From positions 62,001-126,000 of the forward strand of contig CAIXFN010000101.1 in assembly GCA_903918755.1 (NCBI GenBank): 64,000 bases of DNA, given 5' to 3'. Made by a program: the position numbers and the translations under genes. This DNA is from an uncultured Pedosphaera sp. (GTDB lineage: Bacteria; Verrucomicrobiota; Verrucomicrobiia; Limisphaerales; Pedosphaeraceae). This document shows, piece by piece, positions 1 through 5,518 of the stretch. Every line of letters starts with the position of its first letter. The stretch's first letter is position 1. Below the pieces are notes generated by a model. It was not told the DNA's origin. It made no database searches and was given only the letters and a program-made list of their open reading frames with translations.

Positions 1-394
1 ACCAGGCCCCGGTCAAGCCGGGCAAATCGCGTTGTGTCCAAACCGGGTGGGCGAACACCGTCTGGCAATCCTTCTGCAGGTAATCCGTGATGCCCGGCCA
101 CGATCCAGGCACCTTGAAGTAGCCCCACTGGCTGACGGGGACGGACGCAGTGTCCGTCCCGGCGGGTTGCCACTGCCAAAGACCATTCAGGCAAAACCGC
201 TCCCGCGTGGGGGTGGTGGCGCGCCAGGCGCGAGCGGAGTCCCAAACGGCAGTGACCCCGGGCGGCAGGGCCACGGCTTCCGGCGCGTCCGCCGCTCCGG
301 CGCTCCCAGTGAGAAAAACCAGGCAGATACAGGTCCCGAGCAGCCACACTTTGAGGCGGCGAACCGGGCCATGAATTCGGAATCGCGTGAACAC
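1..394 (-). CDS. N-terminal part of an exported glycoside hydrolase family 2-like enzyme (runs off left edge)
   Basis: An open frame reads on the minus strand from a GTG at 394 to the edge (131 codons) with no stop; an in-frame TAG lies four codons upstream of the GTG. The N-terminus has a basic stretch followed by a hydrophobic core (LLGTCICLVFLTG) and an A-x-A-like end, so it is a signal peptide. After it come RERFCLNGLWQWQPA and WGYFKVPGSWPG, which resemble the start of the sugar-binding jelly roll of GH2 beta-galactosidases and glucuronidases (R-x-x-LNG-x-W, VPGSW). The catalytic barrel would lie outside the window, so substrate and activity cannot be judged. The GTG start is my choice; the frame and signal peptide are clearer than the start codon. 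Confidence 0.6.
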   Translation of the reverse strand, partial: MFTRFRIHGPVRRLKVWLLGTCICLVFLTGSAGAADAPEAVALPPGVTAVWDSARAWRATTPTRERFCLNGLWQWQPAGTDTASVPVSQWGYFKVPGSWPGITDYLQKDCQTVFAHPVWTQRDLPGLTGAW

Positions 395-486
395 TCCGAA
401 ATACTATTCCGAACGGCGGAGATGGCAACGTTTTTGGCGCCAATGCAAATACCCGGCGTCGCCGGGCGGAGGGGCATAACGCGCGC

Positions 487-2892
487 TTAGGGCCTGGCCT
501 TCATCTGCTTCAATTGCTGGACCAAACCGCCCACGGGAGCATTGCCTGAATCCAACTTTTGTGTGGTTTCAGCCAGGAGCAGGGCATCTGCCACGCGGTT
601 CACCTCCGGGGAGGCCAGCAGTTGGACAAAGCGGTAGAGCGCTTCGGGACTGTTCGGACACAGCGCGTAGGCCTGCCGGAACGCGAAATCCGCTTGCGCG
701 ACCATCTCTTTGCGTTCCTCGGGGTTCTTCGCATGGCTGATCCTCCAATAATACACTCCGCCGATGGCGCTCCGGAGTTTGGAATAGGCTTTTTGGGCCG
801 GTTGATCCGCCACAAAATCCCGGTCACCACTGAATCCAGCGAGATCGTGCTGTCCGTGTACTTTCTCGGCAAAAGCGGTCACCGCGGCGACGGAAGTTTC
901 GGGTTTGAGCCAATCACCCAGCAGTCTACCGCATTGCTCGGACCAATAGTCATGGTCCTGGCGAACCACGTCGGCGGGGAGGGCACTCAAGGGTTCCCGG
1001 TTCACCTTCATGATCAGCCCATTGGGGGTAAGATGGGGATACATCCAATCCAGCGGAAAACTCTCCTCGAGGTAAAAATCCTTCGTCGCATTGCGATCGA
1101 ATATCGTCCGTGCGATCAGGGAGTTGATGGCCATGACGGCGACCTGGCCGCTGACTTGGACGGAATCCCCTTTCTTGGTGACGTCCTCGCCGGGCCGGAT
1201 TTGTCGCGGCTCCTTGGGGAATTGCGTATCGTGCTCGAGCCGTTTCCCCGCATCCGCCACGTAATCGGCAAAGGCCTTTTCCGAATCCGCTTTCGCCGGC
1301 AGGTCCAGTTGCGCCCCATACATTTTCCGGACGTAATCCAGATAGGTATTATCGGCCAGGGCGTTTTGGGTGATCGTGAAGAACGGTTTGCCGCTGGCAT
1401 GCGCTTCACTCATGGCCGTGATGACGCCCCGACCGGGATCCGTTCCGCCAAAATAGATGCTGCCGGGTGGGATGGAACGGATGATGTCATTCCCGTAGGC
1501 CAGCACATCCTTTTCCTGCCAGTTAGCGAACTGTTCCCAGGCCAGTTCCGTCTCCAAGATCGGGGACCAGACGGCATCGATTCGCGCATCCGCCTTGGTT
1601 CCTTCGTATTGATGCGCCCGCGCCCGGAGTGCCTGCCACAGATTGGTGGCTTTCGTCCAATTCCCCTGGTTGCCGGCCGCAAAATAGCGCCAGACATCCT
1701 CGGTGGGCGTCAGGTCGGACGTTTTTGCCAATTCCCGGGCTTGCGCCTCTTTAGCAGAAAAGAAGGCCCGCAACCGGTCATCATACCACGGCTTGCCCGG
1801 GGGGGCGGATTTTTGCGCCGCGACCGACAGGACGAAAGCCGCCCCGAGGACACAATAAAGTGCCCCCAGGAGAGCGGAAGTTGGCCGCCGGGTGCGGGAA
1901 CTGTCGACGATGGCCTCAATGCGGTTTTGCAATTGGGAAGGACGCGCCATCGCGATGGCGGCGGCTGAACGGACGGGCCGAAAACCCCGAGCAATCGCCA
2001 GCAGGTGGGAGGCATATTCGGAGGGCCGACACCCCCCATTCAGCACCAGATCGTCGCAGGCGCTTTCCCGTTCCAGGAGCATCTGGCGGGCCGCCAGCCA
2101 GACGAGTGGATTGAACCAATAGATCGCGCAAGCCAGGTGCGCCAACAGTTGGGTGAGGCAATCCCAGCGGCGAATGTGGGCGAGTTCATGGAGCAGCACG
2201 ACCCGTTGGCGATCCGCCGCCCACTCGTCGGCGCCGGCCGGCAGGAGGATGACCGGGTGCCTGGTGCCCCAGGTTACCGGCATCAACTGCTCACCGGATT
2301 GCAAAAGGGTCACCGGGCGCCCCATCCCCATCTCCTGACACAAACTTTCCAGCAATTCAGCCCAGCGCGAGTCTGTGGGCGGACGTGCCTGCCGGCGCAT
2401 TTGCGCGATTTGATAATGCCCCGCGAGGACGGAAAGCGTGAACCACAAAGCGCCCGTGAGCCAGGTTCCCAGAATCATGGCCGCCCAGTTCGTACTGAAT
2501 CGCGCGCTCAGCCCATTGCCGAGGGGGCCTTGCGGCAGCGCAGTGACTGCCTTGTCCCGGGCAGTATCGTGGATGCCGGTGGGCGGGGTGGGCGGGGTCG
2601 GTTTGCCTGGCACCATTTCCACCCGCAAACTGATTTCATTGGCGGAGGTGGCGCGGCTGGCCACGGTCCACAGCGGATGCGACCAGCCGGGGAGAACGAT
2701 GGTAAGGACGGGAATGATCAGCAACCCGGCCAGGGCCAGGAGCCAGATCAGGTGCCGGGCCGAAGCCGTGCCCTGGCGCCAAAGTCGGCACACCAAGCCA
2801 GCCATGGCCAGGACCAAAAAGCTTTTCAGCGCGTAATCCAACCAGGCGGCCGCCAGTTGGGATGAAGCAAACCAATGGGGTAATGTATTCAT
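487..2892 (-). CDS. M56 (BlaR1/MecR1-like) membrane metallopeptidase sensor with a DUF2723-tail-like C-terminal domain
   Basis: 801 residues. Four hydrophobic segments (about residues 13-35, 48-70, 135-160 and 340-360) enclose a zinc-peptidase motif, HELAHIRRWD, followed by a downstream glutamate in LLERESACDD; this is the BlaR1/MecR1 M56 layout. The family senses a signal outside the cell and cleaves a BlaI-type repressor inside; the gene for such a repressor lies one base upstream. The C-terminal ~430 residues are not a penicillin-binding domain. They contain IYFGGTDPGRG, FFTITQNALAD, VSGQVAVMAIN, ESFPLDWMYPHL and AFRQAYALCPNSPEAL, which from memory resemble the soluble tail of verrucomicrobial DUF2723 glycosyltransferase-like proteins. 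The ligand is unknown. The family call is strong, the tail resemblance moderate. Confidence 0.88.
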   Translation of the reverse strand: MNTLPHWFASSQLAAAWLDYALKSFLVLAMAGLVCRLWRQGTASARHLIWLLALAGLLIIPVLTIVLPGWSHPLWTVASRATSANEISLRVEMVPGKPTPPTPPTGIHDTARDKAVTALPQGPLGNGLSARFSTNWAAMILGTWLTGALWFTLSVLAGHYQIAQMRRQARPPTDSRWAELLESLCQEMGMGRPVTLLQSGEQLMPVTWGTRHPVILLPAGADEWAADRQRVVLLHELAHIRRWDCLTQLLAHLACAIYWFNPLVWLAARQMLLERESACDDLVLNGGCRPSEYASHLLAIARGFRPVRSAAAIAMARPSQLQNRIEAIVDSSRTRRPTSALLGALYCVLGAAFVLSVAAQKSAPPGKPWYDDRLRAFFSAKEAQARELAKTSDLTPTEDVWRYFAAGNQGNWTKATNLWQALRARAHQYEGTKADARIDAVWSPILETELAWEQFANWQEKDVLAYGNDIIRSIPPGSIYFGGTDPGRGVITAMSEAHASGKPFFTITQNALADNTYLDYVRKMYGAQLDLPAKADSEKAFADYVADAGKRLEHDTQFPKEPRQIRPGEDVTKKGDSVQVSGQVAVMAINSLIARTIFDRNATKDFYLEESFPLDWMYPHLTPNGLIMKVNREPLSALPADVVRQDHDYWSEQCGRLLGDWLKPETSVAAVTAFAEKVHGQHDLAGFSGDRDFVADQPAQKAYSKLRSAIGGVYYWRISHAKNPEERKEMVAQADFAFRQAYALCPNSPEALYRFVQLLASPEVNRVADALLLAETTQKLDSGNAPVGGLVQQLKQMKARP

Positions 2893-2893
2893 T

Positions 2894-3283
2894 TTAGCGA
2901 CCTTCCTTGCGGGCCTGGTTGATGAGGTTTTGCAATTCGTTCAGTTCCGTCTCCGAGATTTCTTTTTCCGGGGTGGTCAGCAGGGCCGCCACGGCCTGAC
3001 TCACGGAACCTTGAAAGAAGGTGGTCACCACCCGCTGGAGCGCCGATTGCCGGGCGCTTTCCGGCGAGCTGCTGGGGGTATAAACATACACCGCCCCGGC
3101 CCGGTGATGGCGGAGATGTCCCTTGGTTTCAAGGATCCGCAACAGCGCCCGGACGGCCGAATAGCCGGGGGGCTCGGGTAGGGCGGCCAGCACCTCGGCC
3201 GCCGTGGCCTGGCCGCGGGAGTGGATCACATCCATGATCTGGCGCTCGCGGCGACTAAGTTCTTGTTCGCGGTTTGGGTTCAT
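2894..3283 (-). CDS. BlaI/MecI/CopY-family transcriptional repressor
   Basis: 129 residues, the usual length of the family. An N-terminal winged helix-turn-helix runs from about residue 10 to 80 (RQIMDVIHSRGQATAAEVLA, then SAVRALLRILETKGHL), and a C-terminal helical dimerisation part contains FFQGSVSQAVAALL, a family hallmark. It is the first gene of a two-gene operon with the M56 sensor; only one base separates them. Two identical palindromes precede it, one ending two bases from the ATG, so autorepression is likely. No Shine-Dalgarno sequence precedes the start. The target genes beyond its own operon are not evident, although a cardiolipin synthase-like gene starts divergently about 120 bases beyond the distal palindrome. 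Confidence 0.92.
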   Translation of the reverse strand: MNPNREQELSRRERQIMDVIHSRGQATAAEVLAALPEPPGYSAVRALLRILETKGHLRHHRAGAVYVYTPSSSPESARQSALQRVVTTFFQGSVSQAVAALLTTPEKEISETELNELQNLINQARKEGR

Positions 3284-3284
3284 G

Positions 3285-3300
3285 TGCTAAAAAATTAGCA
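3285..3300. promoter_or_regulatory. Proximal palindromic operator of the blaI-type operon
   Basis: TGCTAAAAAATTAGCA: TGCTAA and TTAGCA form a perfect inverted repeat around AAAA. It ends two bases before the repressor's ATG and is identical to 3329-3344. Position next to a BlaI-family gene makes it the probable repressor site. Confidence 0.8.
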
Positions 3301-3320
3301 CCACCTGGTTTGGGGCGCAA
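3292..3320 (-). promoter_or_regulatory. Probable promoter of the repressor/sensor operon, -10 inside the operator
   Basis: On the minus strand TTGCGC (3320-3315) is followed after 17 bases by TAATTT (3297-3292). The ATG begins only 9 bases after the -10 box, so transcription would begin at or within a base or two of the start codon, giving a leaderless mRNA. The -10 hexamer is part of the proximal palindrome, so a bound repressor would block RNA polymerase directly. The -35 match is modest. Confidence 0.5.
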
Positions 3321-3328
3321 GGGGAAAA

Positions 3329-3344
3329 TGCTAAAAAATTAGCA
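3329..3344. promoter_or_regulatory. Distal palindromic operator, identical copy
   Basis: Same 16-base palindrome as 3285-3300, 44 bases away start to start, close to four helical turns, so both copies face the same side of the DNA. It also contains a TAATTT on the minus strand that could serve as a second -10 box (TCGACA lies 19 bases further upstream). Confidence 0.75.
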
Positions 3345-3466
3345 GGCTCGATTTGACCTGTGTCGAAAGGCCTGCGTCGCTGTGTCAGTCTCTGCCGGAG
3401 ACGCGGCGAATGCGGGATCGCGGAGGTGGGTTGCCAAACGGGTGGCTGGCCCCTAAGTTGGGGCGA

Positions 3467-4603
3467 ATGTCGCGTGCTAAAACTCGCACTGGTAAATGGT
3501 TGTGGAGCGGCAAGGAATACTTTCCTGCGGTGACGGCGGCCCTGCGGGCGGCCCGTTCGAGCGTGCGGTTGGAGGTTTACATTTTTTCCGCGGACCAGGT
3601 GGGTTTGCGCATTCGGGAGGAATTGCTCCAGGCGTGCGGACGGGGCGTAGCCGTGCGGGTGTTGATTGATACCTTTGGCTCGATCCTGTTGCCTGCGAAC
3701 TTTTGGCAACCTTTGGAAGCAGCCGGTGCCGAAGTGCGTTGGTTTAATCCGCCCTGGTTCAAGCGGTTGGGCTTTCGGGATCATCGCAAGATTGTGGTTT
3801 GCGATGAGGCGGTGGCCTTTGTGGGCGGTTTTAATTTCACGGCCGAATATGACGGCGATGGCGTGCATTCCGGATGGAATGACCTGGGCTTGGAATTGCC
3901 CGGGGCGCAGGCGGTCAATCTGGCCCGGGCGTTTGATGAAATGTTCGAGCAGGCGGCCAAAGCCCACCGGCCGTTCACCCGGTTGCGCCGCACCGCGGCC
4001 AGCCGGGGCGGCTCCGCGCCCGGGGGTGAATTGCTGCTGAGTGGGCCGGGCCGGGGATTCAATCCGTTTCGCCGGCGGTTGCGCGAGGATCTGGAAAGCG
4101 CCCGGGATGTGAGCATCATTGCCGCCTATTTCCTGCCCACCTGGCGTTTGCGGCGGGAGTTGGTGGGCGTCGTAAAACGGGGCGGGCGGGTAAGGCTGAT
4201 CCTGCCGGGCAAGTCAGACGTGCCCATGTCCCAATTTGCGGCTCGGAGTCTTTACCGGCATTTGCTGAAGGCCGGGGTGGAAATTTACGAATTCCAGCCG
4301 CAAATCCTCCACACCAAATTGATTCTGATCGACGGGATTGCCTATGCCGGATCCTCCAATCTGGATCCGCGGAGCCTCTACATCAACTATGAATTGATGG
4401 TGCGACTGGAAGCCCCCGAGCTCACCCGCCCGGCCGGGGAGCACTTTGAACAAATGCTCCGGCACTGCGAGCCCATCGAACTGGCCGCCTGGCGCAAGCA
4501 AAACACCTGGTGGCGGCGCTTCCAGCAGAAGTGGTCATACTTTGTGCTGGTGCATGTGGATCCGGTGTTTGTCCGCTGGCGGATCAATCGGGTTTTCCCC
4601 TGA
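3467..4603 (+). CDS. cls: Cardiolipin synthase-like phospholipase D-family enzyme
   Basis: 378 residues from the ATG at 3467; the frame is open to 3353, but upstream residues show no family match. Two PLD (HKD) motifs are present: HRKIVVCDEAVAFVGG near residue 105 and HTKLILIDGIAYAGSSNLD near residue 285. Two such motifs form one active site; in this family it transfers phosphatidyl groups between phospholipids to make cardiolipin. There is no N-terminal membrane segment, so it resembles the soluble ClsB/YbhO-type rather than ClsA; attachment to the inner face of the membrane is inferred. Divergent from the blaI-type operon and convergent with the next gene. Other PLD-family transphosphatidylases cannot be excluded. 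Confidence 0.85.
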   Translation: MSRAKTRTGKWLWSGKEYFPAVTAALRAARSSVRLEVYIFSADQVGLRIREELLQACGRGVAVRVLIDTFGSILLPANFWQPLEAAGAEVRWFNPPWFKRLGFRDHRKIVVCDEAVAFVGGFNFTAEYDGDGVHSGWNDLGLELPGAQAVNLARAFDEMFEQAAKAHRPFTRLRRTAASRGGSAPGGELLLSGPGRGFNPFRRRLREDLESARDVSIIAAYFLPTWRLRRELVGVVKRGGRVRLILPGKSDVPMSQFAARSLYRHLLKAGVEIYEFQPQILHTKLILIDGIAYAGSSNLDPRSLYINYELMVRLEAPELTRPAGEHFEQMLRHCEPIELAAWRKQNTWWRRFQQKWSYFVLVHVDPVFVRWRINRVFP

Positions 4604-4645: not shown

Positions 4646-5518
4646 TCAGTTTCCCAGGGCTGCCAGATAACGCTGGAAGCGAATGGTATCTTCCGGGCGC
4701 TCCGACTGACGGTAGATTTGATGGAGATTGTGGCAAATTCTGGTGAGCAGGCGGCGCGGCGATAGGGGGACCAGGTAATCGTCCTCCAGGGCATAATTGC
4801 CGTACAGTAAATACTGGATGCAGTTGGCCTTGGTCCAGAGCTGCCCGCCGTTGAAGACGTCCACGTACAACTCCGCCGCGGAAGATTGGAAACGGCAAAT
4901 GAAATGACCGGGGAGGCCGATCCCGGTGATCGGCAGGCCCAAACGACGGGCGAGCAGGAGATACACCAGGCATAAACTGATGGGATTGCCTTTGCGGCGA
5001 TCCACCACCCGGTTCAAATAGCTATTTTCCGGGTCATAGTAGTGCTCGTCGTTGCCCCGAAATCCGAGTACCCCGAAAACGTATTCATTCAAAGCGCCGA
5101 GAATGTGCTCGGCCCCGGCCCGGCGGTCCAGCCGCTCGCGCAATTCCCCCGCGTAACTGTCAAACAGGGCTTCGTAAGCCTCCGGCTTGCAATCGGGATA
5201 TTCCGTTTGTGCCAGCAACCACACCCCTTGCTCCAAATCCAGATCCTCGCCCTGCCGCAGACAAAACCCCAGGAATTGATCGTCCGCGGATTGCCGCGCA
5301 AAGTGCCGGATGATTTCGCGGGCGCGTCGGCGGAGGGAGGCATCGTTGCTCAGGGTATGTGGGCGCAACCAGTCCACCGCCGTCGGCCCGTGGGCGATGA
5401 TGCGCTCGCGGACCAACTGATAGACCGCGGCGTCCTCGTCGGTCAAAAGATTAAGCAGGGCGGCCTTGCGGACTTCCGAAGGCATCTCGGGTGAAAGGAT
5501 GGCAGTATTAGTGCTCAT
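4646..5518 (-). CDS. SirB1-type transglutaminase-like protein with helical N-terminal repeats
   Basis: 290 residues, no signal peptide, probably cytoplasmic. Residues 15-110 are helical and HEAT-like. Residues 130-240 match the SirB1 transglutaminase-like core: YYDPENSYLNRVVDRRKG, NPISLCLVYLLLARRLGLP and GIGLPGHFICRF, the last carrying the conserved GxPGHF histidine. In classic transglutaminases a Cys-His-Asp triad acts; here the cysteine-like position is SLCLVY. The C-terminal ~45 residues are helical, TPR-like (LLTRICHNLHQIYRQSERPE). The biochemical function of SirB1 proteins is not established. It converges on the cls gene; the facing TraB-like gene at 5650 starts 131 bases away. Confidence 0.8.
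   Translation of the reverse strand: MSTNTAILSPEMPSEVRKAALLNLLTDEDAAVYQLVRERIIAHGPTAVDWLRPHTLSNDASLRRRAREIIRHFARQSADDQFLGFCLRQGEDLDLEQGVWLLAQTEYPDCKPEAYEALFDSYAGELRERLDRRAGAEHILGALNEYVFGVLGFRGNDEHYYDPENSYLNRVVDRRKGNPISLCLVYLLLARRLGLPITGIGLPGHFICRFQSSAAELYVDVFNGGQLWTKANCIQYLLYGNYALEDDYLVPLSPRRLLTRICHNLHQIYRQSERPEDTIRFQRYLAALGN

Follow-up and report, generated by a model that had tools for sequence, protein, structure and literature searches.

A BlaR1-type receptor-protease of Limisphaerales whose tail is shared with DUF2723 proteins and is its probable sensor

The window analysed here, a stretch of 64,000 nucleotides from an uncultured Pedosphaera sp. (Limisphaerales), carries near its start a gene for a receptor of the M56 (BlaR1) protease family and, directly upstream of it, a gene for a BlaI-family repressor (Table 1). 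The preliminary description of this DNA had recognised a BlaR1-like M56 sensor, and this identification is borne out on the minus strand by the match to PF05569, by intact zinc-binding motifs and by the adjacent blaI gene. More specifically, H235ELAH and E276SACD are both complete and lie 41 residues apart, matching the spacing of the H201EXXH and E242XXXD zinc motifs in BlaR1 of S. aureus (PMC9834060). The generic NCBIfam blaR1 profile gives 9.4e-30 on the receptor, far under its cutoff, and the NCBIfam BlaR1 models cover the M56 part only. A penicillin-binding sensor was ruled out for this receptor, as Pfam finds no transpeptidase domain in it and the NCBIfam BlaR1 models fall far below cutoff. 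BlaR1 is oriented N-out, C-out (PMC9834060), and by this analogy the receptor tail is placed outside the cytoplasm; it occupies the position that the sensor domain has in BlaR1.

Table 1. Features of the receptor-repressor locus. Positions are those of the window; residues are those of the receptor.
Feature	Position	Strand	Basis
Receptor gene (801 aa): M56 domain plus extracytoplasmic tail of DUF2723 type	487..2892 (stop codon 487-489)	minus	ORF, translation, Pfam, tail homology
M56 (BlaR1) protease domain, residues 30-328	1909..2805	minus	PF05569, E=1e-35 (Pfam)
HELAH zinc-binding motif, residues 235-239	2176..2190	minus	sequence; signature as BlaR1 H201EXXH (PMC9834060)
ExxxD motif ESACD, residues 276-280	2053..2067	minus	sequence compared with BlaR1 E242XXXD
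Final transmembrane helix before the tail, residues 340-358	1819..1875	minus	hydropathy
Whole tail, residues 356-801 (446 residues)	490..1827	minus	homology; AlphaFold2 pLDDT 93.8, pTM 0.92
N-terminal helical part of tail, residues 367-457	1522..1794	minus	alignment and model
Conserved alpha/beta core, residues 458-641	970..1521	minus	alignment; core-alone model pLDDT 91.6
GGTDPGRG motif, residues 482-489	1426..1449	minus	almost unchanged in every form of the tail
C-terminal TPR-like helices, residues 642-801	490..969	minus	PDB TPR sequence matches and TPR-type fold matches
Repressor gene of the BlaI family (129 aa), adjoining the receptor gene upstream	2894..3283	minus	PF03965 Penicillinase_R, 3.6e-27
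Operator 1, TGCTAAAAAATTAGCA, overlapping putative -10	3285..3300		exact palindrome, kept in relatives
Operator 2, TGCTAAAAAATTAGCA, 44 bp from operator 1	3329..3344		exact palindrome, kept in relatives
Putative blaI promoter: TTGCGC 3320-3315, 17 bp, TAATTT 3297-3292	3292..3320	minus	inferred from sequence

Searches of the tail against Pfam and NCBIfam return no family, the only match being a sub-threshold one to a tetratricopeptide repeat (TPR_14). Its relatives are found in the same genome, where two tandem genes encode proteins of 1177 and 1169 aa whose C-termini match the tail (1e-105 and 4.6e-100; 56% and 53% identity over about 270 residues) and whose N-terminal parts are PF11028/TMEM260-like, formerly DUF2723 (1.6e-28 and 1e-27). 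The likeness to the soluble C-terminus of DUF2723 proteins that had been proposed in the preliminary description is thereby confirmed, and the stretches quoted in its favour (GGTDPGRG, ITQNALAD, SGQVAVM, DWMYPHL and ALCPNSPEAL) are all present in the tail. Neither of the outcomes named as refuting it, a lack of any match to DUF2723 proteins or a better match to a common M56-associated tail, was obtained. PF11028 itself has no Pfam match in the 801-aa receptor, which has the tail in common with DUF2723 proteins without being a member of that family. Chance similarity was ruled out by the E value of 1e-105 and the invariant cores. The homology of the tail and the architecture of the receptor, M56 followed by a DUF2723-type tail, can be regarded as practically certain.

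A homologue of the tail is present in 39 of 40 relatives. In alignments, the receptor, free-standing proteins and DUF2723 proteins alike contain the motifs GGTDPGR, TQNxLAD, SGQVAVM, EESF and DWMYP, and 16 core positions are invariant across 57 aligned proteins. While the alpha/beta core is common to the M56, stand-alone, kinase and DUF2723 forms, the first 70-odd residues of the helical part are found in the fusions, the stand-alone proteins and the kinase but are absent from the DUF2723 proteins. Of the columns conserved in DUF2723 tails, 81 of 143 are kept in at least 87% of the fusions, compared with 25 of 234 other columns. The losses concentrate at tail residues 93-119 and 134-173, the segments that follow the membrane module in the enzyme. 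It is likely, to judge from this alignment, that the fusions have kept a ligand site and lost contacts with the enzyme.

In the confident AlphaFold2 model of the tail, an alpha/beta core is flanked by helices on its N-terminal side and by TPR-like helices on its C-terminal side. Foldseek and VIA comparisons yield only weak TPR and 14-3-3 helical matches, so that solved structures match the helical part alone; Z values against these chains reach 10.9, which is within the range of common helical arrangements, and the Pfam match to TPR_14 lies below cutoff. The alpha/beta core on its own has no convincing match among solved structures (best Z 4.4), a result that does not show the fold to be new. 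GT-C enzymes of the STT3/AglB type, whose C-terminal domain had been expected to match the core, are not among the matches listed. Comparison of the tail with viral structures and PHROGs gave nothing.

A scan of GTDB genomes with the tail alignment retained 79 loci, nearly all of them labelled Verrucomicrobia or Limisphaerales, and these fall into four architectures: DUF2723 proteins, free-standing proteins, M56-tail fusions and one Ser/Thr kinase. The closest full-length relatives of the receptor tail are free-standing secreted proteins and lipoproteins. Such proteins measure about 450-540 aa, and those inspected mostly start with a signal peptide, many with a lipobox, which indicates that the domain works outside the cytoplasm. 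The kinase (L112:2-4351, on CAISVF010000304.1; PF00069, 5.9e-48) bears the same tail at its C-terminus. The occurrence of one extracytoplasmic tail on two different signalling outputs is the best indirect evidence that it serves as a sensor. In other classes of the phylum the core occurs mostly in large, DUF2723-sized proteins. An 815-aa protein from another family of the class (L184:7950-10394, G042) shows a further architecture, in which repeat-like helices come after the tail domain and membrane segments make up the C-terminus.

Genome searches together with the GTDB scan identified 14 distinct M56-tail loci in the order: the window, G007 (L045), G015 (L046), G026 (L057, where the contig stops within the tail), G017 (L058), L082, L089 (= L208), L090 (= L213), L097, L099 (= L185), L100, L106 (= L212), L209 and L210, where duplicate names were equated by agreeing sizes of record and protein. 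Thus the same fusion, which the preliminary description had proposed to look for in relatives, is found in at least 14 genomes. The blaI gene lies directly upstream in all 13 loci with sequence there, the G007 contig ending too early, and no conserved neighbour gene was found at the fusion loci besides blaI. In a tree of M56 domains, 12 of the 14 fusions form one clade (support 97/96) in which every member is tailed, which marks the fusion as old and maintained. Two members are extended further, the L097 fusion ending in a SecDF P1-head domain and the L090 fusion in TPRs; by eye, the end of the G017 fusion resembles that of L097. No paper on an M56-tail fusion was found in the open-access literature.

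A tail common to M56 proteins was ruled out as an explanation, as the tails found elsewhere among M56 proteins of the order are unrelated to this one (RCC1-like in L211, others in L214, L219 and L220) or hardly there at all. The L211 receptor (L211:2891-5086, G421) lies behind blaI, and its tail has the look of RCC1-type repeats. Judging from the variety of these tails, the receptor lineage thus appears to swap its sensors freely.

The preliminary description had further proposed that a DUF2723 domain was recruited into the receptor. The homology that this proposal requires is present; however, the grouping of the receptor tail and its extra N-terminal helices go with the free-standing forms. 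Limisphaerales DUF2723 tails form one clade (98) in the tail tree, and the receptor tails fall among free-standing tails rather than with those of DUF2723 proteins; when other classes are added, the free-standing type sits between two DUF2723 groups, both trees being quick ones with several long branches. It is thus the secreted form that comes nearest to the receptor tail in architecture, and recruitment from DUF2723, a partly supported claim, is better read as a domain shared with DUF2723.

The region upstream of blaI contains putative operators. The perfect palindrome TGCTAAAAAATTAGCA occurs at two exact sites in the window and at none in 100 shuffled sequences. Pairs of TGCTAAN4TTAGCA-type sites, 42-44 bp apart and each with at most one mismatch, are present in 12 of the 13 fusion loci with upstream sequence; the L100 locus has a single site instead of a pair. 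In most fusion loci a TTGAC-like -35 can be read between the operators and a -10 inside the gene-proximal site. This is the layout expected for autorepression, as far as can be read from the DNA. The predicted -10 in the window lies so near the blaI start codon (3281-3297) that little or no leader would be left on the mRNA, and the spacing in G015 is similar.

The operator defined in this way gives a handle for predicting regulons. The genome of the window contains no further exact copy, and its sole one-mismatch site is near another M56 gene; G015, G017 and G026 have exactly two exact copies apiece, all at the fusion locus. Across these four genomes exact operators were thus found at blaI only, and one-mismatch matches were rarer than those of a reversed control pattern. 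No operator was found in the fusion genomes at genes for DUF2723 proteins or for stand-alone tails, so that the blaI-M56 operon is the only target identified. The same operator also accompanies M56 pairs that are tail-less or have another tail (L214, L216 and L219), which indicates that it belongs to this BlaI lineage and not to the sensor. The pairs in L214 and L219, with their unrelated tails, have the TGCTAAN4TTAGCA operator, and their BlaI proteins may cross-talk with paralogues.

Gene order joins the two families in one instance. In the single-contig genome G274 (L216, C1, about 3006392-3012311), two operators, blaI, a gene for a 424-aa tail-less M56 protein and a gene for a tailed DUF2723 protein of 1389 aa follow one another on one strand, the likely start of the last (MSTEKP) lying 14 bp past the M56 stop. 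G018 (L221), of the same genus, has the same DUF2723 gene beside the same response-regulator gene and no blaI-M56 between them. Of these two close relatives, one therefore has the cassette directly before the gene for the enzyme, a single case in which the M56 protein has no tail. In that one case gene order joins the M56 and DUF2723 families as the fusion does by domain order. Since DUF2723 is nearly universal in the order, its co-occurrence with the fusion is uninformative.

The receptor may be set beside several other systems. With BlaR1/MecR1 and BlaI/MecI of staphylococci and bacilli it has in common an M56 domain with HExxH and ExxxD, a last helix leading to an extracellular C-terminal domain, an adjacent repressor gene and palindromic operators at the repressor promoter. 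It differs in that the penicillin-binding domain is replaced by an unrelated alpha/beta and TPR-like domain, in that the operator is TGCTAAN4TTAGCA and in that no beta-lactamase or PBP gene is seen beside it. The DUF2723/TMEM260-like GT-C enzymes (PF11028; CAZy GT117 for TMEM260) share the C-terminal extracytoplasmic domain and its core motifs, whereas the receptor has no catalytic GT-C module and, in place of many of the residues conserved nearest the membrane module, has a different helical N-terminal part. Free-standing Limisphaerales tails (e.g. G000:C30 and L083-L111) match over their full length including the N-terminal helices, at about 41-54% identity, but are secreted or lipid-anchored with no signalling output fused to them. 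The other M56 receptors of the order (L211, L214, L219 and L220) agree in the M56 and BlaI pair and differ in having unrelated C-terminal domains. To our knowledge, M56 receptors are known almost only for beta-lactams. The receptor chassis is already known, and the sensor domain on it is, as far as searched, undescribed; the sharing of the tail among enzyme, receptor, kinase and lipoprotein likewise has no published description as far as the open-access literature could be searched.

Taken together, the evidence leans towards a BlaR1-type receptor-protease and repressor pair with an exchanged sensor, in which a ligand of the tail belonging to the DUF2723 system drives cleavage of BlaI. BlaR1 cleaves BlaI directly, under the control of ligand occupation of its outside domain (PMC9834060), and it is by this analogy that a ligand-activated protease is proposed here. 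In the resting state BlaI would occupy the two TGCTAAN4TTAGCA operators and block its own promoter. The tail would then bind its ligand, within this scheme most likely an exported acceptor protein awaiting or carrying its glycan, and binding would be transmitted across the membrane as a change of the M56 protease; cleavage of BlaI would in turn derepress the blaI-M56 operon, together with whatever other gene the promoter serves. The tail is probably the sensor. For its ligand, an acceptor protein or the glycosylated form of one is put forward tentatively and falls short of an even chance, by analogy with TMEM260 (GT117), in which recruitment of acceptor proteins or domains has been proposed as the role of the variable luminal module (PMC11292533). 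It is on account of this module that an acceptor is favoured over a free or lipid-linked sugar. The glycan or lipid-linked sugar signal suggested by the preliminary description is consequently not upheld, a protein ligand being at least as likely, and no experimental paper was found in the open-access literature on bacterial DUF2723 proteins, to which it had assigned a role in envelope glycan assembly.

Other readings of the tail must be weighed against this one. It might sense a free sugar, a polysaccharide or a lipid-linked sugar and so report donor supply or envelope damage, which is judged unlikely. The DUF2723 enzymes (PF11028) belong to the GT-C type, a binding or active site is suggested by the look of the near-invariant polar motifs (GGTDPGR, TQNALAD and EESF), and in the genome of the window a GH2-like hydrolase and a PMT/Agl23-type GT-C protein are encoded downstream on the same strand. 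Yet GT-C enzymes bind their lipid-linked donor at a membrane module that is absent from the receptor; TPR-like helices usually bind protein; and the neighbouring genes are not conserved, a terminator-like hairpin setting the GH2 gene apart. The downstream genes in question (G000:C101:56081-62394, L063, extending into window positions 1-394, minus strand) encode the GH2-like hydrolase, a small galactose-binding-like protein and the Agl23/PMT-type GT-C protein (TIGR03663), and the hairpin lies at window positions 451-467 between them and the receptor gene.

The tail could also be a docking part instead of a sensor. As a dimerisation or docking module it would pair the M56 receptor with DUF2723 enzymes or lipoprotein tails, the partner carrying the signal, and this is somewhat less probable again than sugar sensing. 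Its C-terminal part is TPR-like, in L097 and L100 the blaI-M56-tail operon is immediately preceded by a gene for a lipoprotein tail, and in L216 a tail-less M56 protein shares an operon with a tail-bearing DUF2723 protein. However, a neighbouring tail gene is absent from most fusion loci, and conservation is strongest in the alpha/beta core and not in the TPR part, which suits a binding site better than a scaffold. That a secreted tail gene was joined to M56 by chance, as a passenger with no part in signalling, is very improbable: M56 proteins of the order do carry many different tails, or hardly any, but 14 loci across many families have kept the fusion with intact core motifs, and the tail was separately fused to a kinase.

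Under the preferred reading, a tail that senses a ligand of the DUF2723 system, cells may be using machinery famous for its response to penicillin to keep watch on protein glycosylation or on its substrates. This reading allows a more specific and decidedly more speculative one. Unsatisfied glycosylation acceptors might directly trigger repressor cleavage, which would make the receptor of these Limisphaerales a glycosylation-state checkpoint built on a penicillin-receptor chassis. Doubtful to the same degree is the wider form of this checkpoint, in which the acceptor-recognition module of a DUF2723/TMEM260-type glycosyltransferase would also serve a BlaR1-type protease, a Ser/Thr kinase and free lipoproteins. 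Human TMEM260 is a disease gene of heart development. Should the tail have one and the same ligand on the enzyme and on the receptor, the receptor could be used to test what the domain recognises, and bacterial gene regulation would be shown to follow the glycosylation state of proteins.

Two further genes lie beside the repressor. A cardiolipin synthase gene (ClsB-like PLD; window 3353-4600, plus strand) diverges from blaI, with the operators in the shared intergenic stretch; it might be co-regulated through them, although this neighbour is not conserved in relatives. Beyond it, a transglutaminase-like protein (PF13369, 7.8e-46) encoded at window positions 4646-5518 on the minus strand is an ordinary neighbour.
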